Assembly: GCA_040755095.1 (NCBI GenBank)
Contig: JBFMBH010000013.1
Location: 1-50,062, forward strand
DNA length: 50,062 bases
Reading direction: 5' to 3'
Source: Thermodesulfobacteriota bacterium
Lineage (GTDB): Bacteria; Desulfobacterota; Desulfobulbia; Desulfobulbales; JBFMBH01
The notes under the pieces were generated by a model, which was not told where the DNA came from, did not search any database, and saw only the letters and a list, made by a program, of their open reading frames with translations. Shown here piece by piece: positions 35 to 31,730 of this stretch. Position 1 is the first letter of the stretch; every line of letters starts with the position of its first letter. A program made the translations under genes and the position numbers.

Positions 35-3000
35 GTGCCCTTCGGCGGGGCGCGCACCGCCGTGGTGGTGGGGGTGAGCGGCGCTGGCGACCTGGCCCAG
101 CTCTACGGCTTCCGCACCATGCTGCCGCTCTTCTTTGGCGAGGCGGCGGACCGCATCGCCGCCCACTTCGGTGACACCCTCCCGGAGTGGACCGAGGATT
201 CCTTCCCCGGCATCCTCATGAATGTCGCCGCCGGCCGCATCGCCAACCGCTTCGATCTCGGCGGCATGAACGCCCTGGTGGATGCCGCCTGCGCCTCTTC
301 TTTGGCTGCCCTCTACCTGGGGGTGAAGGAGCTTGCCAGCGGCGCCAGCGACATGGTGGTGGTGGGCGGGGCCGACTCCATGCAGAGCCCCTTCACCTAC
401 ATGTGCTTTGCCCAGACCCATGCCCTCTCCCCCCGGGGCCGCACCACCCCCTTCGATGCCGGCGCGGACGGCATCGTCATCGGCGAGGCGGTGGCCTTCT
501 GCGTGCTCAAGAGGCTGGCCGACGCCGAGCGGGACGGGGATCGCATCTACGCGGTGGTCAAGGGCATGGGCGCCTCCAGCGACGGCCGGGACCGCAGCCT
601 GACCGCGCCCGGCGTCGCCGGCCAGGAGCGGGCCCTGGCCCGGGCCTATCGCCAGGCCGGGGTGTCGCCCGCCGCGGTGGGGCTGGTGGAGGCCCATGCC
701 ACCAGCACGGTGGAAGGGGATCGGGTGGAGGTGGAGTCCCTGACCCGGTTCTTCACCGCCGCCGGTGCAGCGCCGGCCAGCTGCGCCCTGGGCTCGGTCA
801 AGTCCATGATCGGCCACACCAAGTCGGCAGCCGGGCTGTCCAGCCTCATCAAGGCCGCCCTCGCCGTCTTCCACGGCGTCCTGCCACCCACCCTGGGGGT
901 GGAGACCCCCAACCAGGGCCTGGCCAGCCCCACCTCGCCTTTCTTCCTGCCCCAGGAGGCGCGGCCCTGGCTGCCCCGGCGGCCAGGCCCCCCCCGGCTG
1001 GCCGGGGTTTCTGCCTTCGGCTTCGGCGGCACCAACTTCCACACGGTGCTGGCCGAGCACCAGGGCCGCTTCCAGGAGGCCGAGGTGCCGGCCCCCTGGC
1101 AGCGCTGGCCCACGGAGCTTTTCGTCTGGCGGGCCGCCTCCCGGCAGGCCCTGGCCGCCGAGGTCGCCGCCGCGGCCGCCCGGCTGGCCGGGGTCGCCGG
1201 CGTGGACCTCTTCGCCCTGGCCTGGCAGACCCGGACCCGGGAGGTGCGGCTGCGGCCGCGGCTGCCGGCCGGCTCCCCGGTCCTGGCCGTGGTGGCGGAG
1301 GACGTGGCGGATCTTGCCGCCAAGCTGGCGGTGGCCGGAAGCTTTCTGGCCGGCGCCGAGGAAAGCCTGCGGGATCCCCGGGGCATCTATTGCACCAGGC
1401 AGCCCCTGGCCGCCGGGGGCAGCATCGCCTTCCTGTTTCCGGGCCAGGGCTCCCAGTACCCCGGCATGCTGGCCGACCTGGCGGTGCAGCTTTCGCCGGT
1501 CCGGGAGCGCTTTGCGGCCAGCGATGCCCTTCTCCTGGAGCGGCTGGGCGCTCGCCTGAGCGACTTCATCTTCCCGCCCCCGGCCTACAGCGAGGAGGGG
1601 CGCCGGGCCCAGGCGAAGCTGCTCGCCCGCACCGACATCGCCCAGCCGGCCATGGGCACCGCTGACCTGGCCTTGTGCGACCTCCTGGCCGGCCTCGGCA
1701 TCACGCCCGCCATGACCGCCGGCCACAGCTACGGCGAGTATGTGGCCCTGGCCGCGGCCGGCGCCATCGACCCCGGCGACCTCATCCTCCTCTCCGAGGC
1801 CCGGGGCCGCTTCATCCGCCAGGGTGCAGGCGAGGAGCCGGGCACCATGGCGGCAGTGGAGGCGGAGGCGACCCGGGTGGCGGCGCTTCTCGATGGCCTG
1901 GCCCAGGTCTGGGTGGCGAATCGCAACTCCCCCCGGCAGACCGTGATCTCAGGGGCCCGGGAGGCGGTGGCGCTGGCCGCCGCCCGTCTGGAGGCGGCGG
2001 GCATCAAGGCCCGGCCCATCCCGGTGGCGGCCGCCTTCCATTCCCCGGTCATGGCGCCGGCCGGGACCAGGCTGGCGGATTATCTGGCCACCGTGCCCCT
2101 GGCGGCGCCCCGGGTGCCGGTGTACTCCAACACCACCGGCTGTCCCTATCCCGAGGAGCCGGCGGCGATCCGCACCCTGCTCGGGCGGCATCTTCTGGAG
2201 GGCATCGACTTCATCGGCGAGATCCTGGCCATGCACGAGGCCGGGGCCCGGATCTTCATCGAGGTCGGACCGGGCCGGGTGCTCACCGGCCTGGCCGAGC
2301 AGATCCTGGCCGGCCGGCCGCACCTGGCCGTGGCCAGCTGCCTGCGGGACCGGTCCGGACTGACCGGACTGCAGCATCTGGCCGCCGAGCTCCTCGCCCA
2401 GGGGGTGCCGGTGGACTGGGCCGGCCTCGATCAGGGACGGCTGCCCCCGGAGCGGCCGCCGGAGCCGGCCGCTGTTGCCAGCGAGCGCCCGGCCTGCCAT
2501 GGCCTCTGGCTGGTGAGCGGCGCCGGGGTGCGGCCGGCTCCCGCCTCCCCATGGGGCTCGGCACCGGTGCGGGCCATCACCCCCTATCCGGTGGGATCGG
2601 CGGCCACGGCTGCGCCCGCCGGCGGGCCGCCGGCGGGCGCAGCGGGGCTGCTCGTGCGGCACCATGAGCTGATGGCGGCCCTGGCCCAGGGCCAAGAGGA
2701 GCTGATGCTCCGCTACCTCGGCCCGCCGGCCGGGGCCCGCCAGGATGCGGCGCCGCGGCTGGTCCGGCATCATCGGCTCATGGAGCATTTGGCCGGCGGC
2801 CAAGGGGCCCTGATGCGCCGTTTTCTTCAGGGGCAGGACCCGGCGGTGCCCGAGGAGGAGGCCGCCACCGAGCCGGCAGCCGTGCCGGCGGTGCCCCGCT
2901 GTGTGCCCAAAATCCTGCCGGCACCGGCGGTCTGGCCCAAGGCCCCTTTGCCGGCCGGCCGGGTGGTGCTGATCACCGACGACGGCCGGGGGGTGGCGGC

Positions 3001-5431
3001 CGGCCTGGCGGCGACTCTGGCCGAGCAGGGCCTGCCCCCCGTTCTTCTTCAGGTCAGCGATCAGGGGCTGGCCCGGGCCGACCGGGAAGGGGCGGCTGCC
3101 GCGGCTCTCACCCCGGAAGCCGTGGCCGCCCTGATCGCCGGCATCGCGGCGGAGCTGGGGCTGGTGGGGGCGGTGGTGCATCTGGCACCCCTGGCGGCGG
3201 CCGAGCCCTTGCCGGCCCTGGATCTGGCGGCCTGGCGCCGGCTGGTCGGCCGGGAGACCGTATCCCTGTTCCTGCTGCTCCAGGCCTGCCAGGAGGGGCT
3301 GAGCGCTCCCGGCGCCCTTGGCCGTCCCACGGTGCTGGCCGCCACCGGGCTGGGCGGCGCCTTTGGTCTGGACGGCAGCCTGGCGTCCGAAGCGGCGCGG
3401 CCCAGTCATGGCGGGGTGGCGGGTCTGGTCAAGACCGTGGCCCTGGAGTGGCCGCAGGCTCGGGTCAAGGTGGTGGATCTCGATCCCGCCGGCAGCGTCC
3501 CCGAGCTGACGGCAGTGCTGCGCACCGAGCTGGCGGCCGATGACGGCCTGGTGGAGGTGGGCTGGCGGGCCGGGGTGCGCTGCACGGTGGGGCTGGTCGA
3601 GACCCCGGACCTGGCCGGCCGGCCGGCGGCCTGGGAGCCGGATGCCTCGTCGGTGCTGCTCGTCACCGGCGGCGGCCGGGGAATCGCCGCCCGAGCGGCC
3701 CGGGAGCTGGCGGCCCGCTTCCGGCCCACCCTGGTGCTGGTGGGCCGCACCCCGTTGGCCGCTGGTCCCGAGGAGACGGCTTGCGCCGGCCTGGCTGAGC
3801 CGGCGGCGCTGCGCCAGGCCCTGACCGCCCGCTTGGCGGCCCAGGGGCAGGCCGTGACCCCGGCCCAGGTGGAGCGGGCGGCCCGGGAGGTGCTGGCCCG
3901 CCGGGAGATCCGGGCCAACCTCGCCAGGCTGCAGGAGCTGGGCAGCCAGGCTGTCTACCGGGAGGCGGATGTCCGTAACGAGGCCGCCCTCGGCCAGCTC
4001 TTGGCCGGCATCTACCGGGATTTCGGCCGCCTGGACGGTGTCATCCATGCGGCCGGCGTCATCGAGGATGCCGTGCTGGCCAACAAATCCCTGGCGTCCT
4101 TTGAGCGGGTCTTTGGCACCAAGGTGGAGAGCGCCTTTCTCCTGGCCCGGCTGCTGCGCCTGCCGGACCTCAAGCTGCTGGCCTTCTTCTCCTCGGTGGC
4201 GGGCCGCTTCGGCAATGCCGGCCAGGCGGACTACACCGCGGCCAACGATCTTGTCAACAAGCTGGCCCTGTACCTGGATGCCCGGATGCCGGGCCGGGTG
4301 GCCGCTCTCAACTGGGGACCCTGGGCCGGCGGCGGCATGGCCTCCCCGGCGGTGCAGGCAGCCTTTGCCCGCCGCGGCGTCGGCCTCATCGATCCGGCTG
4401 CCGGTGCCGCTGCCTGCCGGCAGGAGCTGGTGCAGGGCGCCAAGGGCGAGGTGGAGGTGGTGCTGGGGGCCGGGCCCTGGCAGGACCTGGGCCCACTGGC
4501 CGCGGACCTGGGTCGCCTGCCGCTCCTGGCCGATGCCCGCCTCGAGGCTGCCGGCCAGGCCTTCCGCCGCACCCTTTCTCCGGCCCACGACCTCTTTCTC
4601 GACCACCACCGCCTGGACGGCCGGCCGGTGCTGCCGGCGGCCTTTGCTGTCGAGCTCATGGCCGAGGCGGCCGCGGCCGGCCGGCCGGACTGGGTGCTTC
4701 AAGCCGTGGAGGAGGTGCGGGTCCTGAAGGGCATCGTGCTGGATGGCGAGGAGCGGGAGATCCGGATCGCGGTGGCGCCGGCTGCCGGCGGCAAGGAGGG
4801 CGAGATGCTGCGGCTGGCCGCCAGCATCGCCGATGACCCGCCGCCGGCGCCGCCCCTCTACACCGCCACCGTGGTGCTGGGGCGCCGGCCGGCCCCGGCT
4901 CCGGCCTGGCCGGCCCTGCCCGCCCCAGGCAGTCTGCCCCCTTTCCCCCTCACCGTGGCCGAGGCGTACCAGGAGCGTCTCTTCCACGGCCCGCTCCTGC
5001 AGGGGCTGACCGCTGTCGACGGCGTCTCGGAGACGGCCATGCTGGCCAGGCTTTTCAGCTCGCCCCCCCGGGACTGCCTGGCCACCAGGCCTGCGGCCTC
5101 CTGGCTCATCGATCCGGTGGTCATGGACATCGGCCTGCAGATGGCCCTGCTCTGGGCCCGCCAGCACCTGGACTGTACGGTGCTGCCGTCCCGGTTCGCG
5201 GCCCTGCGGGTCTATGCCCCGTTTCCGGCGGACAGGGCCATCTCCTGCCATCTGGAGGTGCAAGACGTCCTGGACCGCCAGTCGGTGCGCTACACCATGC
5301 GGTTCGCCGACGATTGCGGCCGGCCCCTGGGGCTGATCGACTCCGTGGAGGCCACCGGCAGCCCGGCCCTCAACCGGCTGGCCGGGCACGTCGCGTACAC
5401 CGGCCTGGGCAGAGGGAGGGTGCAGCCATGA
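35..5431 (+). CDS. Type I polyketide/long-chain lipid synthase, KS(truncated)-AT-KR-DH
   Basis: Multidomain iterative synthase subunit of the PUFA-synthase/heterocyst-glycolipid (HglE) style. The ketosynthase has Cys86 (DAACASS), His221 (EAHATST) and His261 (KSMIGH), but about 130 N-terminal residues of the fold are missing compared with the KS of the next gene. The acyltransferase lies at about 460-780 with Ser565 in GHSYG. Two similar helical segments follow near residues 870 and 908. The ketoreductase (about 1200-1470) has TGGGRGIA and a YTAAN active-site motif. The dehydratase has HxxxGxxxxP at 1525-1534 and a later DxxxQ. I see no carrier protein, so the ACP must come from the next genes. 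The GTG at 35 has no clear ribosome site; an in-frame TAG at 26-28 blocks extension. It ends in an ATGA overlap with the next gene. Start and completeness are uncertain. Confidence 0.85.
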   Translation: MPFGGARTAVVVGVSGAGDLAQLYGFRTMLPLFFGEAADRIAAHFGDTLPEWTEDSFPGILMNVAAGRIANRFDLGGMNALVDAACASSLAALYLGVKELASGASDMVVVGGADSMQSPFTYMCFAQTHALSPRGRTTPFDAGADGIVIGEAVAFCVLKRLADAERDGDRIYAVVKGMGASSDGRDRSLTAPGVAGQERALARAYRQAGVSPAAVGLVEAHATSTVEGDRVEVESLTRFFTAAGAAPASCALGSVKSMIGHTKSAAGLSSLIKAALAVFHGVLPPTLGVETPNQGLASPTSPFFLPQEARPWLPRRPGPPRLAGVSAFGFGGTNFHTVLAEHQGRFQEAEVPAPWQRWPTELFVWRAASRQALAAEVAAAAARLAGVAGVDLFALAWQTRTREVRLRPRLPAGSPVLAVVAEDVADLAAKLAVAGSFLAGAEESLRDPRGIYCTRQPLAAGGSIAFLFPGQGSQYPGMLADLAVQLSPVRERFAASDALLLERLGARLSDFIFPPPAYSEEGRRAQAKLLARTDIAQPAMGTADLALCDLLAGLGITPAMTAGHSYGEYVALAAAGAIDPGDLILLSEARGRFIRQGAGEEPGTMAAVEAEATRVAALLDGLAQVWVANRNSPRQTVISGAREAVALAAARLEAAGIKARPIPVAAAFHSPVMAPAGTRLADYLATVPLAAPRVPVYSNTTGCPYPEEPAAIRTLLGRHLLEGIDFIGEILAMHEAGARIFIEVGPGRVLTGLAEQILAGRPHLAVASCLRDRSGLTGLQHLAAELLAQGVPVDWAGLDQGRLPPERPPEPAAVASERPACHGLWLVSGAGVRPAPASPWGSAPVRAITPYPVGSAATAAPAGGPPAGAAGLLVRHHELMAALAQGQEELMLRYLGPPAGARQDAAPRLVRHHRLMEHLAGGQGALMRRFLQGQDPAVPEEEAATEPAAVPAVPRCVPKILPAPAVWPKAPLPAGRVVLITDDGRGVAAGLAATLAEQGLPPVLLQVSDQGLARADREGAAAAALTPEAVAALIAGIAAELGLVGAVVHLAPLAAAEPLPALDLAAWRRLVGRETVSLFLLLQACQEGLSAPGALGRPTVLAATGLGGAFGLDGSLASEAARPSHGGVAGLVKTVALEWPQARVKVVDLDPAGSVPELTAVLRTELAADDGLVEVGWRAGVRCTVGLVETPDLAGRPAAWEPDASSVLLVTGGGRGIAARAARELAARFRPTLVLVGRTPLAAGPEETACAGLAEPAALRQALTARLAAQGQAVTPAQVERAAREVLARREIRANLARLQELGSQAVYREADVRNEAALGQLLAGIYRDFGRLDGVIHAAGVIEDAVLANKSLASFERVFGTKVESAFLLARLLRLPDLKLLAFFSSVAGRFGNAGQADYTAANDLVNKLALYLDARMPGRVAALNWGPWAGGGMASPAVQAAFARRGVGLIDPAAGAAACRQELVQGAKGEVEVVLGAGPWQDLGPLAADLGRLPLLADARLEAAGQAFRRTLSPAHDLFLDHHRLDGRPVLPAAFAVELMAEAAAAGRPDWVLQAVEEVRVLKGIVLDGEEREIRIAVAPAAGGKEGEMLRLAASIADDPPPAPPLYTATVVLGRRPAPAPAWPALPAPGSLPPFPLTVAEAYQERLFHGPLLQGLTAVDGVSETAMLARLFSSPPRDCLATRPAASWLIDPVVMDIGLQMALLWARQHLDCTVLPSRFAALRVYAPFPADRAISCHLEVQDVLDRQSVRYTMRFADDCGRPLGLIDSVEATGSPALNRLAGHVAYTGLGRGRVQP

Positions 5432-8400
5432 GCAGCCAGCCGTCCGCCGCGTTGCAGCCCCGGCGGGACGTGGCCATCGTCGGCATGGCCGGCCTCTTTC
5501 CCCAGGCTCCGGACCTCAAAGCCTTCTGGCACAACATCGTCGCCGGCCGGGACTGCATCACCGATCCGTTGCCGAGCTCGCTGGTGGCCCAGGTCTATGA
5601 CCCGGACAGCCGGGAGTCCAACCGCATTGCCTGCCGGCGGGGCGGCTATCTGCACGAGCTGCCCCCCTTCGTGCCTGCCCGCTACGGGGTGATGCCCCGG
5701 GCGGTGGACGGCGCCGAGCCGGAGCATTTCGTGGCCCTGGTGGTGGCCCACGCGGCCCTGGCCGACGCCGGCCTTCTGGACCGGCCCTTCAACCGGGCCG
5801 CCACCGAGGTGATCCTGGGCCGGGGCACCTTTGTCAACCGGGGCTTCATGTCCGCCATGCAGCATGCCCTGGTGGTGGACCAGACCGAGGACCTCTTGCG
5901 GGATCTTGATCCGGACCTGGCGCCGGAGACCCTGGCCCGGATCCGGGCCGCCCTCCTGGCCCAGCTGCCGCCCTTTTCACCGGAGACCGCACCAGGCCTG
6001 TGCCACAACGTCATGGCCGGCCTCATCGCCAACCGGCTCGACCTCCAGGGCCGGACCCTGGTGGTGGACGCCGCCTGCGCCTCCGCTCTCCTGGCCCTGG
6101 AGATCGCTCGGGACGATTTGGCTCTCGGCAAGTGCGAGGTGGCCCTGGTGGGCGGCGTCCAGATCTCCACTCCGGCGCCCATCCACATGCTCTTCACCCA
6201 GCTGGGCGCCCTGTCCCGGAGCGAGCACCTCAAGCCCTTCGACCGGCGGGCCGACGGCACCATGCTGGGCGAGGGAGCCGGGATGCTGGTGCTGACCCGC
6301 CTGGAGGACGCCCTGGCGCAGGGCCTGCGGGTCTACGCCGTGGTGAAAGGGGTGGGCTCGGCCAGTGACGGCAAGGGGGCCGGCCTCTTGGCCCCCCGAT
6401 TGGAGGGGGAGGAGCTGGCCTTGCGCCGGGCCTACCAGGACGGCGGCGTCGACCCGGCGACCGTGGGGCTCATCGAGGCCCATGGCACCGGCATCCCTCT
6501 GGGGGACCGCACCGAGGTCATGGCCCTGCGCCAAGTCCTGGGACCGCGCCGGGGCGAGCTGCCCTCCGTGGCCCTTGGCACGGTCAAGTCCATGATCGGC
6601 CATCTCATCCCGGCGGCCGGGGCCGCCGGCATGATCAAGGCCGCGCTGGCCATCTACCACAAGGTGCTGCCGCCCACCATTGCCTGCGACGAGGAGAATC
6701 CGGAGCTGGAGCTGGAGAAAACCGGGCTCTACCTCAACCGCCGGGCCAGGCCCTGGATCCATGGCGCTGCCGCCACCCCCCGCCGGGCCGGGGTGAATGC
6801 CTTCGGCTTTGGTGGCATCAACGCCCACGTCATCCTGGAGGAGGGACCGGCGGCGGCGGACGGCGCCTGGCGGCACGGCGACTGGGAGAGCGAGGTCCTG
6901 GTGGTGTCGGCCGCCTCCCGGCTGGACCTCGCCCAGCGCTGCCAGGATCTGGCCCAGGCCTGGCACGAGGAGCCGGCGGTGCCGCTGGCCCGCCGCGCCG
7001 CCGGTCTGGCCGCCGGCCCCGGGCCGGCCGGCTGCCGTCTCGCCCTGGTGGCCGGCACCGTGGAGGAGGCGGCCAGGAAGCTTGCCCGCAGCGCCCAGAA
7101 GCTCCAAGAGGAAGGTCGCACCCAGATCCAGGACAAGAGCGGCATCTTCTACTTCGACCAGCCCCTGGCCCAAGAGGGCGGGCTCGCCTTCCTGTTCCCC
7201 GGGGAGGGATCCCAGTACCTGGACATGCTGGCCGATCTGTGCCTGCACTTCCCCGGGGTGCGGGCCTGCTTCGATCTCCTGGACCGGGCCTACGCCGATC
7301 ATCCCCGGGGGCTTCTTCCCAGCCAGTTCATCTTCCCGCCGCCGGGCAGCGACCGGGCCCAGGCCGAGGAGCTGCTTCTGGCCATGGACGGGGCGGTGGA
7401 TGCGGTCTCCACCGCCAATCGGGCCCTGGCCGGCCTGTTTGCCGAGCTGGGCATCGCGGCCCAGGCGATGGCCGGCCACAGCTCCGGCGAGCTGGCGGCC
7501 CTGGAGGCGGCCGGCGCGGTGCCGCTTGCCGGCGAGGAGGATGTGATCGGCTATATCCGCACCGGCAACGCCATCATCGAGCGGCTGGAAAGGGCGGCCA
7601 CGGTGGCTGCCGGCCGGCTGCTGGCCGTGGGCGGGGTGGAGCGGGCTGCGGTGGACCAAGTCCTGGCGGCGAGCCCCGGCTTTCTGGTCCGGGCCATGGA
7701 CAACTGCCCCCACCAGTCGGTGCTGTGCGGCGACGAGGCCGTGCTGGCCGCCGCGGCCCGGACGCTCCGGGACAAAGGAGCGGTCTGCCAGCCGCTGCCC
7801 TTCCACCGGCCCTACCACACCGAGCGCTTCCTGCCGGCCCTGGCGCTCCTGGCCGAGCTTTATGACGAGGCCCGCTTCCAGGCCCCCCGGGTGCGCCTCT
7901 ACTCGGCCATGACCGCCGCCCCCTACCCCGAGGATGCGCAAGGGGTGCGGGATACTGCCCTGGCCCAGTGGGCGCAGCCGGTCCGGTTCCGGGAGACGGT
8001 GGAGCGGATGCATGACGACGGCATCCGGCTGTTCGTGGAGATCGGCCCCCGGGCCAACCTGACCAGCTTTGTCCGGGACACCTTGAAGGGCCGGCGGTTC
8101 GCAGCCGTGGCCGCCAATGTCCACCACCGGGGCGGCATTGCCCAGCTCGGCCATGCCCTGGCCCTTCTGGCGGCCCACGGCGTGGCCATGGACCTCGCTC
8201 CCCTTTTTCGCCGGCGGGTGGAGAAGGAGATCTTGGCGATGCCCGCCGGCGGGCTTGAGATCCGGCGGGAGCTGCCGATCCTGCGGTTGTCTGGCGTCAG
8301 CCTGGCCGGGGCGCGGCCAGACCAGGGGAGCCCAACGACAGGGGAGAAGGCTATGCCGCCGACCAGTGACGAGCGTCCGGCCCGGCCCGGGCTGCCGCCC

Positions 8401-8862
8401 GGGGCCGACCAGGTGATGGACGCCTACCTGGCCTCCGTGGAGGCCATCCTGACGACCCAGTTCCAGGTGATGACCGCCTATCTGGCCGGCGGCCCGCTGC
8501 CGGCCGAGGCGGTGGCGCCACCGGTCCCGCTGCCGCCACGGCCGGCGCCGGCACCCACCCCGGACCCGGCGGCAGAGCGACCAGAGCCAAGGCCGGTGCC
8601 GGCCGTGCCGGCTGGCATCGAGGCCATGCTTTTCGCCCTGGTCAGCGACAAGACCGGCTATCCCCAGGAGATCCTGGGCCGGGATCAGGCCCTGGAGGCG
8701 GATCTGGGCATCGACTCCATCAAGCGGGTGGAGATCCTGGCCGCCCTGGCCCGGCAGCTGGGCGGGCTCGACGAGGAGAAGACCGCCGCCCTGACCCGGC
8801 TGCGCACCCTGGGAGAGATCATCGATCTGTTGGCCGATGGGGCCAAAGGGGAGCGGTCGTGA
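5428..8862 (+). CDS. Polyketide/long-chain lipid synthase, KS-AT-ACP
   Basis: Second synthase subunit, 1144 residues. A complete ketosynthase begins at about residue 14 (VAIVGMAGLFP), with Cys217, His352 (EAHGTG) and His392 (KSMIGH). An acyltransferase follows at about 585-930 with Ser685 in GHSSG and a PFHRPYH histidine motif. A proline-rich linker leads to one acyl carrier domain whose attachment serine (about residue 1097) sits in LGIDSIKRVEIL, the form typical of PUFA-synthase carrier domains. PUFA synthases usually carry several tandem ACPs; here there is only one. The ATG at 5428 overlaps the previous stop (ATGA) and the stop overlaps the next start (GTGA), so all three synthase genes look translationally coupled. 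A longer open frame reaches 5314, but its extra N-terminus is low-complexity and overlaps the upstream DH region. Confidence 0.9.
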   Translation: MSSQPSAALQPRRDVAIVGMAGLFPQAPDLKAFWHNIVAGRDCITDPLPSSLVAQVYDPDSRESNRIACRRGGYLHELPPFVPARYGVMPRAVDGAEPEHFVALVVAHAALADAGLLDRPFNRAATEVILGRGTFVNRGFMSAMQHALVVDQTEDLLRDLDPDLAPETLARIRAALLAQLPPFSPETAPGLCHNVMAGLIANRLDLQGRTLVVDAACASALLALEIARDDLALGKCEVALVGGVQISTPAPIHMLFTQLGALSRSEHLKPFDRRADGTMLGEGAGMLVLTRLEDALAQGLRVYAVVKGVGSASDGKGAGLLAPRLEGEELALRRAYQDGGVDPATVGLIEAHGTGIPLGDRTEVMALRQVLGPRRGELPSVALGTVKSMIGHLIPAAGAAGMIKAALAIYHKVLPPTIACDEENPELELEKTGLYLNRRARPWIHGAAATPRRAGVNAFGFGGINAHVILEEGPAAADGAWRHGDWESEVLVVSAASRLDLAQRCQDLAQAWHEEPAVPLARRAAGLAAGPGPAGCRLALVAGTVEEAARKLARSAQKLQEEGRTQIQDKSGIFYFDQPLAQEGGLAFLFPGEGSQYLDMLADLCLHFPGVRACFDLLDRAYADHPRGLLPSQFIFPPPGSDRAQAEELLLAMDGAVDAVSTANRALAGLFAELGIAAQAMAGHSSGELAALEAAGAVPLAGEEDVIGYIRTGNAIIERLERAATVAAGRLLAVGGVERAAVDQVLAASPGFLVRAMDNCPHQSVLCGDEAVLAAAARTLRDKGAVCQPLPFHRPYHTERFLPALALLAELYDEARFQAPRVRLYSAMTAAPYPEDAQGVRDTALAQWAQPVRFRETVERMHDDGIRLFVEIGPRANLTSFVRDTLKGRRFAAVAANVHHRGGIAQLGHALALLAAHGVAMDLAPLFRRRVEKEILAMPAGGLEIRRELPILRLSGVSLAGARPDQGSPTTGEKAMPPTSDERPARPGLPPGADQVMDAYLASVEAILTTQFQVMTAYLAGGPLPAEAVAPPVPLPPRPAPAPTPDPAAERPEPRPVPAVPAGIEAMLFALVSDKTGYPQEILGRDQALEADLGIDSIKRVEILAALARQLGGLDEEKTAALTRLRTLGEIIDLLADGAKGERS

Positions 8863-10738: not shown

Positions 10739-10771
10739 CCACCACCTCCCTCCATCAAAAACGGTCTTCCC

Positions 10772-22814: not shown

Positions 22815-22815
22815 C

Positions 22816-22956: not shown

Positions 22957-25419
22957 ATGGAACTGGCGCTCCGGGAAGACCTGACAGCGGCCAGCCCGAC
23001 ACTGCCGCTCCGGAGGCGGCATTTCGCCCCCGTCGTGGTAGGCGGCTGGGGGGATGCCCAGAACACCTATGTCCACGCCATGGCCTGGTTTCAGGACCAT
23101 CTCTATGCCGGCGTGACCAGGAACGCCTTGAACGGCGTGCGGCCATACCCCCGCAGCGAGGCGATGGCCATCTACCCGGTGAAGGTCCCGGACATCCAGT
23201 GGGACCTGGACTGGCGGGCGCCGATCTGGCGCTATGCGCCGGCAGCCGGCACCTGGGAGCGGGTCTTTGTCTCGCCCATGGCCATGGGTAGCCGGGGCTT
23301 TCCGGTGCCCCGCCAGTGGGGCTACCGGAACATGGCGGTGTTCCAGGGCAGAAGCGATCCGGCGCCGGCCCTCTACGCCGTGTCCTGGGGCTCGCACATG
23401 GGGCCCGGGCCCCACGTGCTCCGCTCCCTGGACGGCTGCCAGTTCGACGAGGTGGGGGACGAGGCCCTGAAGAGGATCGGCGCCACCACCCTGCGGGGCC
23501 TGGTGTCCTTCAAGGGCCGCCTGTTCACCTCGCCGGCTGCCCGCTGCGGCGGCACCGACACCGGCACCCACGACGTGCCCATCATCCTGGTCAGCGAGGA
23601 CCCGGCGTGCGGCGCCTGGCACCAGGCCTGCCCGCCCTGCTTCGGCGATCCCAACAACATCGCCGTCTCGGTGATGGCGGCCAATGGCCATTATCTGTAC
23701 GCCGGCACCATGAATCCGGTGGCTGGCTACCAGATCTGGCGCACCGCGGCGGAGGGCCCGCCGCCGTACCGCTGGGAGCCGGTGATCATCCGGGGGGCCT
23801 TCCGGGGCAACCTCAACGAGGCGGCGGCCACCCTGTGTCCCTTCCGGGGCAGCCTGTACGTGGGCAGCGGCATCTACAACCTGGGCTTCGACCGCATCCA
23901 CGGGGTGGGACCGGGCATGCCGGAGCTTATCCGTATCCATCCGGACGGCTCCTGGGAGCTGGTGGCCGGCGAGCCCCGGAATACCCCCCAGGGGGTGAAG
24001 ACGCCATTGAGCGGCATGGGGGCCGGGTTCAACAACCCCTTCGTGGGCTACATCTGGAGCATGTGCGAGCACCAGGGCTGCCTGTATCTCGGCACCGCCA
24101 ACTGGTCGAGCTGGCTCCTGTTTACCCGGGACGAGATCTGGGACGAGCACATCGCCCGCCACTTGCCCTCCGTGGACCGGGACGCCCTGCTGGCCCATTT
24201 CGGGGGCTTCGAGCTGTGGCGCTCGCCGGATGGTGCGCGCTGGGAGGCCGTCACCCGCAACGGCTTCGGCAATCCGTACAACGTCGGGGTGCGCACCATG
24301 GTCTCCAGCCCGGCCGGGCTCTTCATCGGTGTCGTCAACCAGTTCGGCGAGGAGGTGGCGGTGCGGCGCACCGCCGGCTGGCGCTACGAGTCCAACCGGC
24401 AGGGCGGGGTGGAGGTCTGGCTGGGCCGCCACGACCGGCGGCCGGCGCGACCGGAGGTGGTGGTGCCTGGCCGGCAGGCGCTGCCCTGGCCGGAGGCGCA
24501 GCTGGACGACTACTGGCTCCTGCTGCCCGGGGTGAGCGAGCGCCATCTGGGCCTGGTGACCCGCTTCTACGAAGGCAGCGGCTGGCACGCCACCGGGTTC
24601 TGGCGCCCGGGTGGGCGCTCGGCCCGGGAGGCCTGCGAGAATCTCCTGGAGGAGCTGCTGGCGTTCTTCCGGCAGGAGCCGGAAGGCCGGGAGCCCCGCT
24701 ATCCCAAGCCGGAGGAGGTGGCGGCCTGGATGGCCGCCCGCTCCGCCCGGCCGTGGGAGGACTACCAGGCGGAGCGCACCGCCTTGAGCTGCGAGCGGGT
24801 TCTCGATGTGGGCTGCGGCCTGGGCAGCTCCACCGGTTATCTGAGCCGCTATTTTGCGGCGGACGGCCTGGTCGGCGTGGCCGCCGGCAAGAAGGCCGCG
24901 GCGGTGTGCCGCCGCCGGTTCCCGGGCTTGCGCTTCGTGGCCGGCCGCTGGCCCCGGCTGCCTTTTGGCCGGGATGCCTTTGACAAGGCGGTCTGCCTGG
25001 AGGGCCTGGCGGCCGGGGGCAGCCGCCGGCGGCTCCTGGCCGAGATTTGGCGGGTCTTGGCGCCCGGCGGCCTGCTGGCCTTGGCCGACCTGCTCCGGCC
25101 GGCCTCCGGCAACGAGCCCCGGTCTGCCGAGGAGCTGGCCGCCCTTCTCGAGGAGATGGGCTTCCAGGAGGTGCGGGTGGCCGACGTCACCAGCCGGACC
25201 AGCGAGCGCCTGCGGGTCCAGGCATTGCGCTTTTTCCATCTGGAGGCCGTGCTCAAGGGTGCCACCGGGGACGAGGTGGCGGATTTTCTCGCCGGTCTGC
25301 CGGGGGGGAGCGGCGAGACCCGCCGCTTTCTCATCGGCTGCGGCCGGAAGGGGGAGGCTGCGCCGGGCGGCCGGCCAGGCCCGGGCTCCGTCATCCGCGG
25401 GCTGTTCGGAAGGGGGTAA
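22957..25419 (+). CDS. Beta-propeller-like protein fused to a SAM methyltransferase
   Basis: 820 residues. Residues about 20-500 hold repeated blade-like segments (e.g. MAWFQDHLYAGV, VSFKGRLFTSP, LCPFRGSLYVGSG, MCEHQGCLYLGTA), the look of a Kelch-like beta-propeller. Residues about 530-800 are a class I methyltransferase: FYEGSGWHATGFW at 537-549, which echoes the YYGGS...GYW block of methyltransferases 1-3, then VLDVGCGLGSS at 615-625. No signal peptide is visible. Propeller-methyltransferase fusions are unusual; the propeller may dock the substrate carrier. The start at 22957 follows the repeat element, and the next gene begins 5 bases after its stop. Confidence 0.8.
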   Translation: MELALREDLTAASPTLPLRRRHFAPVVVGGWGDAQNTYVHAMAWFQDHLYAGVTRNALNGVRPYPRSEAMAIYPVKVPDIQWDLDWRAPIWRYAPAAGTWERVFVSPMAMGSRGFPVPRQWGYRNMAVFQGRSDPAPALYAVSWGSHMGPGPHVLRSLDGCQFDEVGDEALKRIGATTLRGLVSFKGRLFTSPAARCGGTDTGTHDVPIILVSEDPACGAWHQACPPCFGDPNNIAVSVMAANGHYLYAGTMNPVAGYQIWRTAAEGPPPYRWEPVIIRGAFRGNLNEAAATLCPFRGSLYVGSGIYNLGFDRIHGVGPGMPELIRIHPDGSWELVAGEPRNTPQGVKTPLSGMGAGFNNPFVGYIWSMCEHQGCLYLGTANWSSWLLFTRDEIWDEHIARHLPSVDRDALLAHFGGFELWRSPDGARWEAVTRNGFGNPYNVGVRTMVSSPAGLFIGVVNQFGEEVAVRRTAGWRYESNRQGGVEVWLGRHDRRPARPEVVVPGRQALPWPEAQLDDYWLLLPGVSERHLGLVTRFYEGSGWHATGFWRPGGRSAREACENLLEELLAFFRQEPEGREPRYPKPEEVAAWMAARSARPWEDYQAERTALSCERVLDVGCGLGSSTGYLSRYFAADGLVGVAAGKKAAAVCRRRFPGLRFVAGRWPRLPFGRDAFDKAVCLEGLAAGGSRRRLLAEIWRVLAPGGLLALADLLRPASGNEPRSAEELAALLEEMGFQEVRVADVTSRTSERLRVQALRFFHLEAVLKGATGDEVADFLAGLPGGSGETRRFLIGCGRKGEAAPGGRPGPGSVIRGLFGRG

Positions 25420-25424: not shown

Positions 25425-26840
25425 ATGGACGAGACCTTTCTGCCCCGCATCAAGCGGCTAGGCCACGGCCCCCAGACCCGCCTTGCCCTGGCGGTCGCCC
25501 TGGTGGAGCAGGGGGATGCCGCGGCGGCCATGGCGGAATGCCAGGCGGTGCTGCGCTGGAGCGACCGGTATGCCCTGGCCCATTTCGTGCTGGCCGGCAT
25601 CTACTCCGATCTGGGCCGCTATGACGAGGCCCTGACCAGCTCTGCCCGGGCCCTGGCCTTCGACCAGGGCATCACCGAGGCGCACCGCCTGCGCTCGTAC
25701 ATCCTGGCCGAGACCGGTCACTACCCCGAGGCCCTGGCCGAGCGCCAGGCGGCCCTGGCCCTGGACCCGGAGAACGCCCTGGACCACCACCGGCTGGGGG
25801 AACTGCAGTTGGCGATGGGCCAGAACAAGGCGGCCCTGGCCAGCTTCCGGGAGGCCGCCCGCTTGAACCCGCAGATGGCCGTGGCCTACTTCGGCATCGC
25901 CAACGCCCATCTGCGCCACGAGGAGGAGGAGGCCATCGCCGCCCTGGAGACGGCTCTGCGCATCAGCCCCGGCTTTCCCAAGGCCCATCTGCTCCTGGGC
26001 GACATCGCGGCAAGCCGTGGCGATCATGGGGGCGCCATCCGCCATTACCGGGACGCCCTCAGCCTCAACCAGCGCCAGGCCGAGCCCCACTTCCGCCTTG
26101 GCGAGCTGCACTTCCACCTGGGCCGCTTTCCCACCGCCCTGGTGGAGTACCGGCTGGCCCTGGTCATCAAGCCCCGCTACGCCCCGGCCCACCACCGCCT
26201 GGGGAATGTCTACTTCCGCCTCGGCCACTACGATCTGGCCATCCGCCAGTACGAGGCAGCCCTGACCCACAACCCCAACCTGGCCGCGGCCCGGGCCGAC
26301 ACCGGCGATGCCCTCCTGGCCCTGGGCCGCTGGCAGGAGGCCATCGACCACTACCGGCGGGCCCTGGCCCAGGTGGATCTGGCCTGCCCCGAGGGCGAGA
26401 CGGCGCTGGGCGAGGAGCGCTTCCTGGAGGCGATCCGCGCCTTCCGCGGCCGGCTGGGCCTGGACCCGGCCCTGATCGTGCCGGCGGCCGTGGAGGGGGG
26501 AGGGCTGCCCCCGGAGACCCTGGGCCACGACGAGCGCCGGGCGGATCAGCGGCTGGCCCTGGCCATGCCGGTGGACGTCCGGGCCCGGCCGGGCAGCTAC
26601 CTGGGCGCCACCCTGGTCAATGTCTCCAAGCACGGCCTGCTGCTCGACAGCCCGGAGCCGGTGGCCCTGGGCAGCGAGATCGAGGTGATCACCGGCCTGG
26701 AACTGGGGGGCCAGAAGCTGGCTGCCCGGGGCCGGATCGTCCGCCAGGAGGACTGGACGGCTGGCCTGCCGTACCGCTACGGCGTGGCCCTCCTGGAGCG
26801 GAACGAGGCATGGGAGCAGTATCTGGCCGAAACAGCGTGA
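25425..26840 (+). CDS. TPR protein with C-terminal PilZ domain
   Basis: 471 residues. At least nine tetratricopeptide-like helical repeats span about 15-330 (e.g. GRYDEALTSSARALAFD, GRFPTALVEYRLALVIKP, GHYDLAIRQYEAALTHNP). The last 100 residues form a PilZ domain with RxxxR (Arg372/Arg376) and NxSxxG (399-404). TPRs bind partner proteins; the PilZ domain would bind cyclic di-GMP. This is the second PilZ fusion in the cluster. A GGGGG-containing ribosome site precedes the ATG at 25425. Confidence 0.85.
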   Translation: MDETFLPRIKRLGHGPQTRLALAVALVEQGDAAAAMAECQAVLRWSDRYALAHFVLAGIYSDLGRYDEALTSSARALAFDQGITEAHRLRSYILAETGHYPEALAERQAALALDPENALDHHRLGELQLAMGQNKAALASFREAARLNPQMAVAYFGIANAHLRHEEEEAIAALETALRISPGFPKAHLLLGDIAASRGDHGGAIRHYRDALSLNQRQAEPHFRLGELHFHLGRFPTALVEYRLALVIKPRYAPAHHRLGNVYFRLGHYDLAIRQYEAALTHNPNLAAARADTGDALLALGRWQEAIDHYRRALAQVDLACPEGETALGEERFLEAIRAFRGRLGLDPALIVPAAVEGGGLPPETLGHDERRADQRLALAMPVDVRARPGSYLGATLVNVSKHGLLLDSPEPVALGSEIEVITGLELGGQKLAARGRIVRQEDWTAGLPYRYGVALLERNEAWEQYLAETA

Positions 26841-26859
26841 GACCAACCGGAGGCAATCC

Positions 26860-29151
26860 ATGGCTGCACCAAGACCCGTGCTGCGCCAGGACCTGGTGAT
26901 CCTGCCGCGCCTGGACGGCGAGGGCTCGTTCCGCTACCTGGTCCGGGACCCCAGAAGCGGCGAGCTGTTTGATCTCGGGGAGGAGGAGATTTTCCTGTGC
27001 CAGCAGCTGGATGGCTCCCGGGAGCGGGCGGCGGTGGGCGCGGCCTTTGCCGAGCGCTTCGGCAAGCCGATCAGCGATGACAGCCTGGGGGCCTTCATCC
27101 GCCACCTGGGCAGCCTGGGCCTTCTGGCGCAACGTACCGGCGAAGAGACCCTGGTGGGGGCCGACGAGGGCACGAAGCACCGGCTGGGCAATCCGGATCG
27201 GCTGTTGACCTTCCTCAAGGGGCAGCTGGGCTGGTGCTTTTCATCTTTCGGCCTGGGGCTGGTGGCGGCTCTGGCCTGTCTGGCCCTGGGAGTGGCCGCG
27301 GCCCACGGCGGCGACCTCCTGCACGAGCTGCGGATGATCGGCCGGCAACGGATCATGGTCGCCGTGCCGCTCTTCTGGATCTTCGGCATCATCCCGGCCG
27401 CCGAAGGGGTCAAGGCCCTGGCCTGTCAGGTGCGGGGCGGCCATGTCCACGAGATCTGCCTGGTCTGGGTCTACCGGGTGATTCCTCACATCTACGCCAA
27501 CCTGAGCGACGTGTTCTGGGTCATGGACAAGAAGGCCAGGCTGCGGGTGCTGCGGGCCGGCCTCATCTTCCGGCTGGTGCTGATCTCCCTTGGCCTTCTT
27601 GTCTGGGTCAACGTGGCGCCAGGCAGTACGCTGCGCACCTTTTCTGCCCTCTTTGTCTGCGCGGCGGTGATCAACCTCGTTCTGGAGGCCTTGCCCCTCC
27701 TGCAGCGGGACGGCTATCTCCTTTTTGCGGCCTGGACCGAGCAGCGGGACCTGTGGTACCGGGCCCGGACCCTGCTCAAGGCCCAGGTCTTGGGCCGGCC
27801 GCAGCCGGAGCCGCTGGCAGCCGGGGAAGGGCGGCGCTTCCTGGTCTTCGGCCTTCTGGCCTGGCTGGCCCAGTACGGGCTCCTTGCCCTGGTGCTGAGC
27901 GCCGTGGGCCTGGAGCTGGTGGAACGCTTCCAGGGGGTTGGTGCCGGGCTCTTCCTGATCATCCTCGGCCTGCGCTGCGAGCCCTTCCTCCGGGGCCAGC
28001 TGGAGCGGCTCCCGGGCCGGGCCTCGCTGCCGGTGCTGGCCAACCAGCACGGCCGGGTGTGGCTCTCCCGGCTGGTGTGGATCGTCCTTCTCCTGGGCTT
28101 CGCGGTGGTGCTGTTTCTGCCCTACCCCTACGAGGTGGGTGGCGAATTCCGCATCGTGCCGGGCACCCAGTACGGGGTGCGGGCGCCGGTGGCCGGGGAG
28201 GTGGAGACGGTCACGGTGGTGGAAGGGCAGGCGGTCAAGAAGGGCGATGTGGTCGCGGTCTTCCAGACCCGGGATGCCCGCATGCGGGTCGAGGCGGCCC
28301 AGGCCGCGGTGGACGACCTCAAGGCCCGGCTGCGCCTGTTGCGGGAAGGCGCCAAGCCCGAGGAGATCGCCCTGGCCGAGCAGCAGGTGAGCGCGGCGGC
28401 CAAGGCCGCGGAATACAGCCAGGCCCAGGCCCGGCGCTACGAGGAGATGGCCCGGGGCAAGGCGGCGTCGGCCGAGGAGCTGGAGACCGCCCTGCGCAGC
28501 CGGGATCTGGACCGGGAGCGCCTGGAGCTGGCCCGCCGCGGCTTGGCCCTGGCCAGAAGCGGCGCCCGCGGCGCCGAGATCCAGGCCGCCGAGGCGGAGC
28601 TGCGGCGCCAGGAGGTCCTGCTGGACCATGCCCGGGAGGACCTGCGCCTGACCACCGTGGTCAGCCCTGCGGACGGCCGCATCATCACCCCCCGGGTGGA
28701 GGAGACGCGGGGCCAATACCTGGCCGAGGGCGAGCTCTTCCTGGTGGTGGAATGCGACGGCCCCCTGCGGGCCGAGGTGGAGGTGCCCGAGGATGAGATC
28801 ACGGACGTCGTGCCGGGCGCCCGGGTGCGCCTGCGGACCTGGGCCGATCCCGACACCACCTACCTGGGCTCGGTGCGGGAGATCGCGCCGGTGGCCTACG
28901 ACAAGAGCCTGAAGAGGGTGCGCCGCACCCTGACCCAGCGGGAGGAGGCCGTGGAGCAGCGGGAGATCCTGCGGGATCAGGGCAAGGCGGTGCGCCTGGT
29001 CTGCGACCTGACGCTGCCCGAGGGCATGGTCCTTAGGAGCGACATGACCGGCTGGGCCAAGATCGAGAGCAGCACCCGGCCGGTGGCGGTGGCCTTCACC
29101 CGCTGGCTGGTACGGTTTGTGATGGTGGAGGTCTGGTCCTGGATTCCGTAG
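26860..29151 (+). CDS. PqqD-like / degenerate M50 / HlyD membrane fusion protein
   Basis: 763 residues. Residues 1-95 resemble the PqqD-like winged helix found in peptide-export adaptors (FRYLVRDPRSGELFDL, then LGAFIRHLGSLGLL). Several membrane segments follow from about 125 to 425. At the place of the M50 zinc motif HExxH the sequence reads AEGVK (181-185), so protease activity is probably lost. Residues about 430-740 are an HlyD/RND-type periplasmic adaptor with a lipoyl/barrel-sandwich start (VRAPVAGEVETV), a long coiled coil and a second lipoyl half (VVSPADGRI). With the TolC-like gene next door it should form an export conduit, but no ABC or RND pump is in the window. Confidence 0.82.
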   Translation: MAAPRPVLRQDLVILPRLDGEGSFRYLVRDPRSGELFDLGEEEIFLCQQLDGSRERAAVGAAFAERFGKPISDDSLGAFIRHLGSLGLLAQRTGEETLVGADEGTKHRLGNPDRLLTFLKGQLGWCFSSFGLGLVAALACLALGVAAAHGGDLLHELRMIGRQRIMVAVPLFWIFGIIPAAEGVKALACQVRGGHVHEICLVWVYRVIPHIYANLSDVFWVMDKKARLRVLRAGLIFRLVLISLGLLVWVNVAPGSTLRTFSALFVCAAVINLVLEALPLLQRDGYLLFAAWTEQRDLWYRARTLLKAQVLGRPQPEPLAAGEGRRFLVFGLLAWLAQYGLLALVLSAVGLELVERFQGVGAGLFLIILGLRCEPFLRGQLERLPGRASLPVLANQHGRVWLSRLVWIVLLLGFAVVLFLPYPYEVGGEFRIVPGTQYGVRAPVAGEVETVTVVEGQAVKKGDVVAVFQTRDARMRVEAAQAAVDDLKARLRLLREGAKPEEIALAEQQVSAAAKAAEYSQAQARRYEEMARGKAASAEELETALRSRDLDRERLELARRGLALARSGARGAEIQAAEAELRRQEVLLDHAREDLRLTTVVSPADGRIITPRVEETRGQYLAEGELFLVVECDGPLRAEVEVPEDEITDVVPGARVRLRTWADPDTTYLGSVREIAPVAYDKSLKRVRRTLTQREEAVEQREILRDQGKAVRLVCDLTLPEGMVLRSDMTGWAKIESSTRPVAVAFTRWLVRFVMVEVWSWIP

Positions 29152-29229
29152 CCGGGGATGGCGGAGCCGGGCAGAAAGCGCCGGGGCAGCGACGGCCCCA
29201 GCAGGCGTAGCGAAGGTCTGGGAGCGAAT

Positions 29230-30699
29230 ATGAAGCGCAGTGATGCCATGCGGGTGTTGGTTACGCCAGCTTGCCTCATCGCCCTGGCCGTGCTCGTGCC
29301 GGCTGCTGGCCGCAGCCAGGCCCCGGCCGCCAGCCTGGCTCTGGAGCAGGCCCTCGTGCTGCCGGTGGCCGGCGGCGTCACCCTGATGCCGCCGGTGGTG
29401 CTGTCCCTGGAGGAGGCGTACCACCTGGCGGGGGCCAGCCACGAGCAGATCGTCATCGCCCGCCAGGAGCTGGACAAGAGCCGGCTCAAGCCGGACCAGG
29501 CCAGGAGCATCATGCTGCCCCACGCCAAGGTGGACGGCGACTACCGGCATCTGGACGATGACATGACCCGCACCACCCAGAGTCACCTGGCGGTGCCCGG
29601 ACTGGGCATCGACCAGGACATCCTGGTCGGGCCGACCCTGGTGGCCCGGGAAGACCAGCTGTCCACCACCTTCTCGGTGCAGCAGGCCCTCTACCAGGGC
29701 GAGTATTTTCCTTTGCGCCGCGCCGCCGGCCACACCATCGACCACAGCCGGGAGGCCCTCCAGGAGACGGTCCAGGAGGTCCTGTTCAGCGTCGCCACCG
29801 TCTTCTACCGGTGCGTGACCGCCAAGGCCCTGGTGGCCACCGCTGGCCAGCTGCTGGATCTGGCCCGGAAGGACTTGGCGGTGGCCCAGACCAAGGTGCA
29901 GGCGGGCAAGCTCACCGAGGACGCGGCTTACCGGGCCCGGCTCAGCGTCACCCGCACCGAGGCCCAACGCCTGAGCGCCCAGCATCAGCTGGTCCTGGCC
30001 CGGGATCTCCTGGCCCGGCTGACCGGCCGGTCGACACCGGTGGCGGACGTGGTGGAGCCGGCGCCCCTCCTCCCCCGGGGGGATGACCTCGAAAGCCTCC
30101 TGGCCATCGCCCAGGCCAACCGCTACGATTTCCGCCGGGCAGCACTCCGGGTCCAGCTCGCCGAAGACGAGCTGGCCCTGGCCAAAGCGAAGAGCCACCC
30201 CTCCCTGGGCGCCGAGTGGCGCTACACCTGGTTCGACCGGGAGCCCCCCACCCTGGACAAGGAATTCTGGGCGGCCATGGTCCGGCTGTCCGTCCCCCTG
30301 GTCGAGGGCGGGGCCCGGCTGGCCGAGGAGGAGGAAAAGGCGATCAGCCTGCAACAGGCCCGGACAGCGCAACTCGATCTGGAAAAGCGCATCCGGCTGG
30401 AGGTGGTGGAGGCCTTCCTGGGGGTCGGCAACCAGGAGGCGGTTCTGGCCAACGCCCAGCAGCAGGTGGAGGCAGCGGCCAAGAGCCATGAGATCGTCAC
30501 CGCCCGCTACGACTTCGGCGCCGCCACCTCCCTGGATTACGACCAGGCCTACACCGCCCTGCAGGCAGCCAGGAACAGCCTGGTCACCGAGACCTATGCG
30601 TACCAGCTGGCCCTCCTCAAGCTGGAGAAGGCCATCGGCCTGTTCGGCCGGGACGAGGTCGAGGCGCTCATGGCGCAGCAGGGCGAGACGCGGCCATGA
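29230..30699 (+). CDS. TolC-like outer-membrane efflux protein
   Basis: 489 residues with an N-terminal signal peptide (about 1-25, hydrophobic LIALAVLVPAAG). Two outer-membrane efflux repeats are visible, with helical motifs such as VVLSLEEAYHLAGASHEQI near the start and YDFGAATSLDYDQAYTAL near the end. The family forms a trimeric channel across outer membrane and periplasm. Start 29230 is chosen for the signal peptide; the frame from 29158 adds a basic stretch without one. It pairs with the preceding adaptor and overlaps the following esterase by ATGA. Confidence 0.88.
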   Translation: MKRSDAMRVLVTPACLIALAVLVPAAGRSQAPAASLALEQALVLPVAGGVTLMPPVVLSLEEAYHLAGASHEQIVIARQELDKSRLKPDQARSIMLPHAKVDGDYRHLDDDMTRTTQSHLAVPGLGIDQDILVGPTLVAREDQLSTTFSVQQALYQGEYFPLRRAAGHTIDHSREALQETVQEVLFSVATVFYRCVTAKALVATAGQLLDLARKDLAVAQTKVQAGKLTEDAAYRARLSVTRTEAQRLSAQHQLVLARDLLARLTGRSTPVADVVEPAPLLPRGDDLESLLAIAQANRYDFRRAALRVQLAEDELALAKAKSHPSLGAEWRYTWFDREPPTLDKEFWAAMVRLSVPLVEGGARLAEEEEKAISLQQARTAQLDLEKRIRLEVVEAFLGVGNQEAVLANAQQQVEAAAKSHEIVTARYDFGAATSLDYDQAYTALQAARNSLVTETYAYQLALLKLEKAIGLFGRDEVEALMAQQGETRP

Positions 30700-31730
30700 G
30701 GACGGCCCTTTTGACCCTCTTGCTGATTCTGGGCGCCGGGGGACTGCAGCCACCGGTCCTGGCCGTGGACGGCGGCCGGGATCCCCAGCGGGACGGGGCG
30801 ATGACCATCTACCCGCTGGCCCACGGCGGCCGGGAGCGCACCTACGGCCTCTACCTGCCCAAAGGGTATGACCCGGGCCGGCCGCACGCCCTTCTCCTTG
30901 CCCTCCACGGCGGCACCGGCTCAGCCCGCAAATGGCCGCCCTATACAGACAACGGCTTCGAGCGCCTCGCCGACCAGGACCAGTTCCTGCTGGTGTATCC
31001 GGAGGGCGTGGACGGCCAGTGGAACGACCGGCGTGGGGTCCAGGATTTCGTGGCCCACCGGGAGAACGTGGACGATCTCGGCTTCCTGGCCGCCCTGCTG
31101 GACAGCCTGGTGGCCCGCTATCCGGTGGATCAGGACCGGATCTACGTGGCCGGCGCCTCCAACGGCGGCATGATGGCCCATTACGTGGGCTCGGAGCTGG
31201 GCGACCGGGTGGCGGCCATGGCGGCGGTCATCGCCGCCATCCCGGAGCGGCTTTTGCCCCTGCTCCAGCCGAAGGCGCCGCTGCCGGTGCTCATGATCAA
31301 CGGCAGCGACGACCCTCTGGTGCGCTGGCAGGGCGGGGTGGTGCGCTTCGCCGGCCGGGAGACCGGTACGGTCATCCCGGTGGAGGAGACCGTCCGGTTC
31401 TGGCTGCAGCACAACGGCATCTCCCAGCCACCCCTGGTCACCGAGCTGCCGGACCGGGATCCGGCCGACGGCACCCGGGTGGTGCAACACCTTTACAGCG
31501 GCGGCCGGGACAAGAGCGAGGTGGTGCTGTACCAGGTGCAGGGCGGCGGCCATACCTGGCCCGCCTTCCACGATCCCCGCGGCCTTCTCATGCGGCTGGT
31601 TGTGGATGAAATGGTGGGCACCAAGAGCCGGGACATCGACGCCTGCCAGCTGATCTGGGCCTTTTTCAAGGCTCATCCCAAGGCTCGGCCGTCCCGGGGT
31701 GACGGCTCCGGGCAGGCTTCTTCCCCATAA
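30696..31730 (+). CDS. Secreted esterase, PHB-depolymerase/LpqC-like
   Basis: 344 residues with a signal peptide (about 1-23). The alpha/beta hydrolase fold shows HGGTGS, nucleophile GASNGGMM, aspartate NGSDDP and histidine GGGHTWP, the layout of the polyhydroxybutyrate depolymerase/feruloyl esterase group. It would hydrolyse an ester outside the cytoplasm. As the last gene of the ATGA chain, behind the export genes, it may act on the exported product. The physiological substrate is not visible. Confidence 0.85.
   Translation: MRTALLTLLLILGAGGLQPPVLAVDGGRDPQRDGAMTIYPLAHGGRERTYGLYLPKGYDPGRPHALLLALHGGTGSARKWPPYTDNGFERLADQDQFLLVYPEGVDGQWNDRRGVQDFVAHRENVDDLGFLAALLDSLVARYPVDQDRIYVAGASNGGMMAHYVGSELGDRVAAMAAVIAAIPERLLPLLQPKAPLPVLMINGSDDPLVRWQGGVVRFAGRETGTVIPVEETVRFWLQHNGISQPPLVTELPDRDPADGTRVVQHLYSGGRDKSEVVLYQVQGGGHTWPAFHDPRGLLMRLVVDEMVGTKSRDIDACQLIWAFFKAHPKARPSRGDGSGQASSP

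Follow-up and report, generated by a model that had tools for sequence, protein, structure and literature searches.

A Pfa-like synthase cluster at one end of contig C13: gene content, relatives in other genomes and a proposed secondary-lipid product

The question raised by this locus is what its long run of synthase, tailoring and transport genes makes, and whether the product leaves the cell. The window, meaning the whole stretch of DNA analysed, is all of contig C13, 50,062 bases with a GC content of 70%, from a genome of 4.52 Mb in 255 contigs that probably belongs to the order Desulfobulbales. Gene calls with Pfam and NCBIfam scans gave 19 plus-strand genes within bases 1 to 31730, and exact 4-base overlaps were observed at 10 of the 18 gene junctions. 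A first-pass annotation had counted about 20 genes, most with such overlaps, and had set the start at base 35. The gene count agrees; the overlaps are limited to the 10 junctions, and base 35 is not a gene start because the window opens inside a KS at the end of contig C13. The parts then listed were all recovered by the scans, namely a split synthase, two SDRs, a radical SAM protein, a tandem CoA-transferase, HlyD, TolC, five methyltransferases (four free class I enzymes and one fused to a propeller), and two PilZ fusions (abhydrolase-PilZ and TPR-PilZ, by Pfam).

Synthase genes

Gene 1 (2..5431), whose 5′ end is missing, encodes the C-terminal part of a KS followed by AT, KR, and DH domains (Pfam), with the active-site motifs DAACAS, GHSYGE, YTAAN, and HRLDGRPVLP kept. 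The upstream part, an NMO/PfaD-like domain and the KS start, was found on contig C148 (L001:8301-10700), at the end of which an NMO domain (PF03060; FabK-like TIGR03151, 149 bits) precedes the first part of a KS. Compared with a single 2,602-residue ORF of the related genome G049, C148 corresponds to residues 17-805 and C13 starts from residue 814; C148 and C13 are therefore very probably adjacent, with a gap of about 8 residues, the join being by homology and not by reads. The full gene 1, as read from its domains, is NMO-KS-AT-KR-DH.

Gene 2 (5428..8862) encodes KS-AT-ACP (Pfam), with the motifs DAACAS and GHSSGE and, in the ACP, DSIK; its KS belongs to the KS2 clade. DAACAS is present in both KS domains and GHSxGE in both AT domains, and the motifs of the KR and the gene 1 DH are also kept. 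Since the KS cysteine of gene 2 is intact, the second KS is not of the chain-length-factor type. Gene 2 and gene 3 carry one ACP each, and relatives have one or two in gene 1. The best NCBIfam family of both synthase genes was PfaA (TIGR02813), with 920 bits for the truncated gene 1 and 629 bits for gene 2, both below the cut-off of 1010 bits for PfaA as curated by NCBI. With this reservation, the match fits the "PUFA/Hgl-style" synthase of the first-pass annotation. A second synthase in the same genome, NMO-KS-AT-ACP-KR plus KS-AT on contig C155 (L002 2-10233), is cut by both contig ends, and it scored above the TIGR02813 cut-off with 1106 bits.

Gene 3 (8859..10613) consists of a DH (Pfam PS-DH), a degenerate half of an Sfp-type PPTase, and an ACP; among PDB entries, its profile matched the PksJ dehydratase and AcpS. 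A PPTase fusion had been listed earlier, but a working enzyme is not supported: the remnant (window 9980-10420), fused in frame to the ACP, is catalytically empty. SHS has changed to GRL, GVDLE has changed to GVRLR, and the C-terminal half with WCAKEA is absent, so that all three Sfp-type motifs (SHS, GxDxE, and WxxKE) are lost in the window's gene 3. A functional PPTase fusion was rejected on these grounds, as was a frameshift hiding the motifs, none of which were present in other frames. In relatives, the PPTase is intact where readable (SHS, GIDIE, and WCAKEA) and the ACP is a separate gene; fusion of the remnant to the ACP could be an assembly artefact. With the gene 3 PPTase dead, holo-ACP formation must rely on another PPTase, e.g., the intact one encoded elsewhere in the genome, on contig C94.

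Putative tailoring and export genes

The gene at 10772..12373 encodes a type I phosphodiesterase/nucleotide pyrophosphatase of the alkaline-phosphatase (AP) superfamily (Pfam PF01663). Alignment of 13 clusters showed its residues D10, T13, D215, H219, D274, H275, and H432 to be invariant; these are the Asp, Thr, and His positions expected for a two-metal site in this family. An alpha/beta hydrolase with a C-terminal PilZ domain follows (12392..13552; Pfam; RxxxR and NxSxxG). The hydrolase is present in all relatives with flanking sequence, and its PilZ tail only in the window, G018, and G049. SDR 1 (13549..14331; TGGSAGIG, YCASK) and SDR 2 (14328..15107; TGGASGIG, YCASK) were both assigned to Pfam adh_short.

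Four free methyltransferases come next, all assigned by Pfam. Methyltransferases 1 (15100..15906; Methyltransf_11), 2 (15903..16712), and 3 (16709..17542) belong to alignment A7, and methyltransferase 4 (17539..18330) represents a separate subfamily with orthologues in G018, G068, G069, G501, and SZAS. The solved structures in the PDB nearest to the A7 profile were 3bus, MitM, and D-glucose O-methyltransferase, and they favour, without proving, O-methylation by the enzymes of the cluster. The product may be "heavily methylated", as the first-pass annotation put it, in that methyltransferases whose nearest solved structures are small-molecule O- and N-methyltransferases are present; the minimal clusters (see below) lack them, which places methylation outside the core.

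Between methyltransferase 4 and the radical SAM gene lies a gene for a 115-aa four-helix-bundle-suffix protein (18327..18674; TIGR04258). Its homologue was absent from all relatives examined, and the gene is probably outside the system. The radical SAM protein (18679..20307; Pfam and NCBIfam) carries the motif CPFRCRFC, gave a weak B12-binding match, and is probably cobalamin-dependent. The nearest NCBIfam family was the PhpK P-methyltransferase (354 bits, 600 needed), and the score against the ladderane-associated TIGR04072 was far below the cut-off (95.6 of 360 bits). Different radical SAM genes occupy this position in relatives. The tandem class III CoA-transferase (20304..22814; Pfam PF02515 and NCBIfam) is split into two genes in G049, G244, G068, and G069.

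The protein encoded at 22957..25419 combines a beta-propeller (about residues 20-495) with the fifth methyltransferase domain. Its AlphaFold model had a pLDDT of 84 and a pTM of 0.89. For the propeller, no Pfam family scored above the cut-off and no sequence relative was found in the PDB; a fold search with the model returned only generic propellers of the Kelch, PLL-lectin, and GH43 types, with TM-scores of at most 0.47 on the query. Identification as a known enzyme was rejected on this basis, and since the fold matches were generic, no function was given to the propeller. Distant homologues (26-32%) were observed in G632, G459, G290, G498, G332, and L035 (Hydrogenedentes), with no synthase genes in the fetched flanks, and by these sequences the propeller family has other settings besides synthase clusters.

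The TPR-PilZ protein (25425..26840; Pfam) has RxxxR and NxSxxG motifs that are invariant in 7 clusters. Because the PilZ receptor motifs RxxxR and (D/N)xSxxG are intact in the PilZ domains of the window, control by c-di-GMP is predicted. The next gene (26860..29151) encodes a multi-helix membrane domain fused to a HlyD/MacA-type adaptor (Pfam HlyD). The membrane domain gave a weak match to an intramembrane protease model (NF041824, 65 of 300 bits) and is only weakly assigned as distantly like M50 intramembrane proteases; the HExxH zinc motif of M50 site-2 proteases was absent in all nine HlyD-fusion sequences of alignment A5, and an active protease was therefore rejected. The structure model of the fusion matched MacA/EmrA, with only the HlyD half recovered in the fold search. 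The likeness to these periplasmic adaptors thus lies in that half, whereas the cluster protein is fused to a membrane domain of its own and the MacB/EmrB partner is absent from the cluster. A TolC-family outer-membrane channel (29230..30699; Pfam OEP, TIGR01844) and a secreted-type esterase resembling extracellular PHA depolymerases (30696..31730; NF050058, 145 bits with a cut-off of 150) complete the set, and homologues of the esterase occur in many clusters. Pfam and NCBIfam detected no transporter motor (ABC, RND, or MFS) encoded in the cluster. The product may be exported, as proposed earlier: HlyD and TolC are present, but the motor is absent.

Related clusters in other genomes

Carriers were sought with the propeller alignment, and their neighbourhoods were then fetched and compared. 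Co-occurrence of the genes, which had been suggested as a check, was strongly positive, with synteny in about 15 other genomes ranging from Desulfobulbales to Ca. Scalindua. The core shared by them comprises NMO-KS-AT-KR-DH, KS-AT, DH-PPTase, and ACP, together with the AP-superfamily enzyme, the alpha/beta hydrolase, the beta-propeller, and the HlyD-type protein. Among the 258 genomes of the order, 12 encode the propeller, 10 of them as close copies, and the carriers are patchy across four families. Exactly 9 of the 258 have the AP orthologue, and every one of these 9 also has a close propeller (hypergeometric probability about 8e-16, shared ancestry ignored). The tenth close-propeller genome, without the AP gene, is 79% complete, and its short contig starts just upstream. 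A chance neighbourhood was rejected on the basis of the synteny and this co-occurrence.

The long version was observed in G018, G049, G244, G068, and G069. It includes the synthase, ACP, AP enzyme, hydrolase, SDRs (in part of them), CoA transferases, and propeller(-methyltransferase), as well as methyltransferases, radical SAM, TPR-PilZ, HlyD, and TolC. The minimal version lacks CoA transferase, SDR, methyltransferase, PilZ, and TolC and was observed in G247, G130, G109 (a single-contig genome), G687, and G658; export through TolC is therefore, like methylation, not a core feature. Related versions occur in G585, G501, Ca. Scalindua sp. OFTM180, and Proteobacteria SZAS AMP-55, and no HlyD gene was found within the fetched 55 kb of SZAS. 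G282 and G540 have the synthase, AP, and hydrolase genes, with a propeller only about 31-33% identical.

In the KS tree, the KS domains of the first gene and those of the second grouped into one clade each, both distinct from the PfaA-like KS of other genomes in the phylum, and the KS of the C155 synthase was placed at the base of the two clades; the tree holds no named characterised reference KS and does not place the published types A-T. Within the second-gene clade, Scalindua is located among desulfobulbal copies, and the minimal type mixes genomes of Desulfobulbales and of the Scalindua class, to which G658 and G687 belong. This mixed placement suggests that the cluster spread by horizontal transfer.

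Sulfotransferase-family genes of varied lengths and subtypes were detected beside the clusters of relatives (L085 2073-3011, L093 11069-11989, L025 18533-19120, L048 64-687, and L090 7853-9040). Unlike several relatives, the window has no sulfotransferase gene.

Proposed product and comparison with known systems

Twenty types of secondary lipid synthases, A-T, have been described, with KS, ACP, and KR, at least one of each, as the minimum set (Shulse and Allen 2011, PMC3098273). The window cluster contains all three, and lacks the multiple tandem ACPs that are typical but not obligatory in such clusters. It resembles the Pfa synthases in its iterative KS-AT-KR, DH, ER-like, and PPTase parts and in the best match to TIGR02813, and differs in having NMO fused before the KS, KS-AT instead of KS-CLF, and a discrete ACP. 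AP, hydrolase, propeller, methyltransferase, and export genes go unmentioned for the Pfa cluster types described (PMC3098273).

The hgl islands of cyanobacteria share a Pfa-like synthase and lipid export by a membrane-fusion protein through TolC; the HExxH-less membrane domain fused to HlyD, the methyltransferases, and PilZ are features of the window cluster. According to a passage in PMC8064123 citing Staron et al. 2011, heterocyst glycolipid export requires DevBCA and TolC. Neither the hglT glycosyltransferase nor the hgd/dev ABC exporter was detected in the cluster by Pfam and NCBIfam, and the cluster is therefore not an hgl member. Ladderane-type FASII clusters, common to Kuenenia and Desulfotalea (Rattray et al. 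2009, PMC2649909), likewise contain many radical SAM and methyltransferase genes and are shared by an anammox and a desulfobulbal bacterium. They contain type II FAS and phytoene-desaturase-like genes, whereas the window has a type I synthase; type II FAS, phytoene-desaturase-like genes, and a TIGR04072 match above cut-off were all absent from the cluster, and the same paper reported no polyketide synthase in the Kuenenia or Desulfotalea genome. A description of the full gene set was not found in the open-access literature searched, in agreement with the earlier remark that no described pathway with this set was known. The cluster family, common to Desulfobulbales and anammox-class bacteria, is apparently undescribed so far.

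We consider it moderately probable that the cluster, most of which lies in the window, encodes a secondary-lipid pathway of the Pfa/Hgl type, with tailoring and export of its own. The sequence shows an iterative synthase of three subunits that includes an ER-like NMO, two KS-AT pairs whose catalytic cysteines and serines are intact, a KR, two DH domains, and ACPs; the phosphodiesterase, hydrolase, and propeller travel with it, as does a HlyD-type protein whose membrane domain is proteolytically empty, joined by TolC in the longer clusters. The recurrent sulfotransferase neighbours of relatives were also counted for the lipid reading. From these parts we infer the product, its methylation, the export route, and the c-di-GMP control. 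The synthase would iteratively make a long, partly reduced acyl chain, which would pass to the discrete ACP and be released by the alpha/beta hydrolase or, alternatively, be shifted to or from CoA by the CoA-transferase pair. The SDRs may set ketone and alcohol positions, the methyltransferases may cap hydroxyls (O-methylation being more likely than N-methylation), and the radical SAM enzyme may add a methyl group at an unactivated position. The product would exit via HlyD-TolC, possibly sulfated in relatives, with the PilZ domains making release or export responsive to c-di-GMP. Such a pathway would work like heterocyst glycolipid formation, with its synthase, adaptor, and TolC.

A membrane PUFA or long-chain lipid kept in the cell, with HlyD/TolC as a neighbouring efflux system, would agree with PfaA as the best match of the synthase genes, with tripartite parts being common, and with minimal clusters that have no TolC. 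A HlyD-type protein is nevertheless present in nearly all clusters, those of the minimal type and of Brocadiae included, and the AP, hydrolase, propeller, and tailoring genes have no mention among the Pfa types (PMC3098273); we regard such a retained lipid as quite unlikely. That the product is a diffusible bioactive polyketide, such as an inhibitor or a metal-binding metabolite, instead of a structural lipid, is also unlikely: the patchy distribution with likely horizontal transfer, the many tailoring enzymes, the efflux parts, and the secreted-type esterase are in its favour, but NRPS modules and modular PKS are absent, no resistance or immunity gene was seen, and an iterative synthase like PfaA, together with an esterase of the PHA type, suggests fatty-acyl chains.

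Division into two unrelated adjacent operons, one for biosynthesis and one for TPR/PilZ/HlyD/TolC, appears very improbable. Gaps of 158 and 142 bases do break the operon, and in G018 and G049 the PKS genes lie apart in inverted orientation; however, the order of both halves is kept in G018, G049, G244, G068, and G069, and Scalindua likewise keeps that of the TPR and HlyD genes, so that this division is largely refuted by synteny.

Returning to the secondary-lipid pathway, its fullest form can be put forward tentatively: a new class of exported secondary lipids, tailored by methylation and in relatives possibly by sulfation, made by a distinct type of Pfa-like synthase, a new propeller(-methyltransferase) family acting on the product, a new pumpless exporter design in which a catalytically empty M50-like membrane domain is fused to HlyD, c-di-GMP control, and exchange of the cluster by horizontal transfer among Desulfobulbales and bacteria of the anammox class. 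A recurring and apparently undescribed secondary-lipid cluster would matter in these ecologically important anaerobes, known for unusual lipids. The compact gene set, one carrier of which is the single-contig genome G109, offers a reference for seeking the lipid, and two of its relatives' and the window's parts, the pumpless HlyD fusion and the propeller-methyltransferase, are new and open to testing.

Several minor observations were made around the clusters. A PEP-CTERM-like protein is encoded immediately after the cluster (window 31795-32472), with a 38% identical homologue near the G049 cluster. Genes of a dipeptide-type ABC importer (SBP_bac_5, two permeases, and an ATPase) occupy window 32566-46889, broken up by AlbA/Schlafen-like, SNF2 helicase, Uma2, and alkaline phosphatase genes. 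L001 2304-6791, on the minus strand and upstream of the NMO gene, encodes a MopE-type copper-binding protein, and a protein with a similar repeat adjoins the NMO gene in G049. The intergenic stretches 10700-10770 and 22815-22900 of the window translate as VHTVHSVHPVHP and DHDSHSHSSHNSHASHASH and resemble short tandem repeats; similar-looking text, MDRMDRTDRMDR, is present on contig C94. A 927-codon frame on the minus strand of G000:C65 (17928-20645) matches both a relative's cluster sulfotransferase (37%) and the AP family, and is perhaps one fused sulfotransferase/AP protein.
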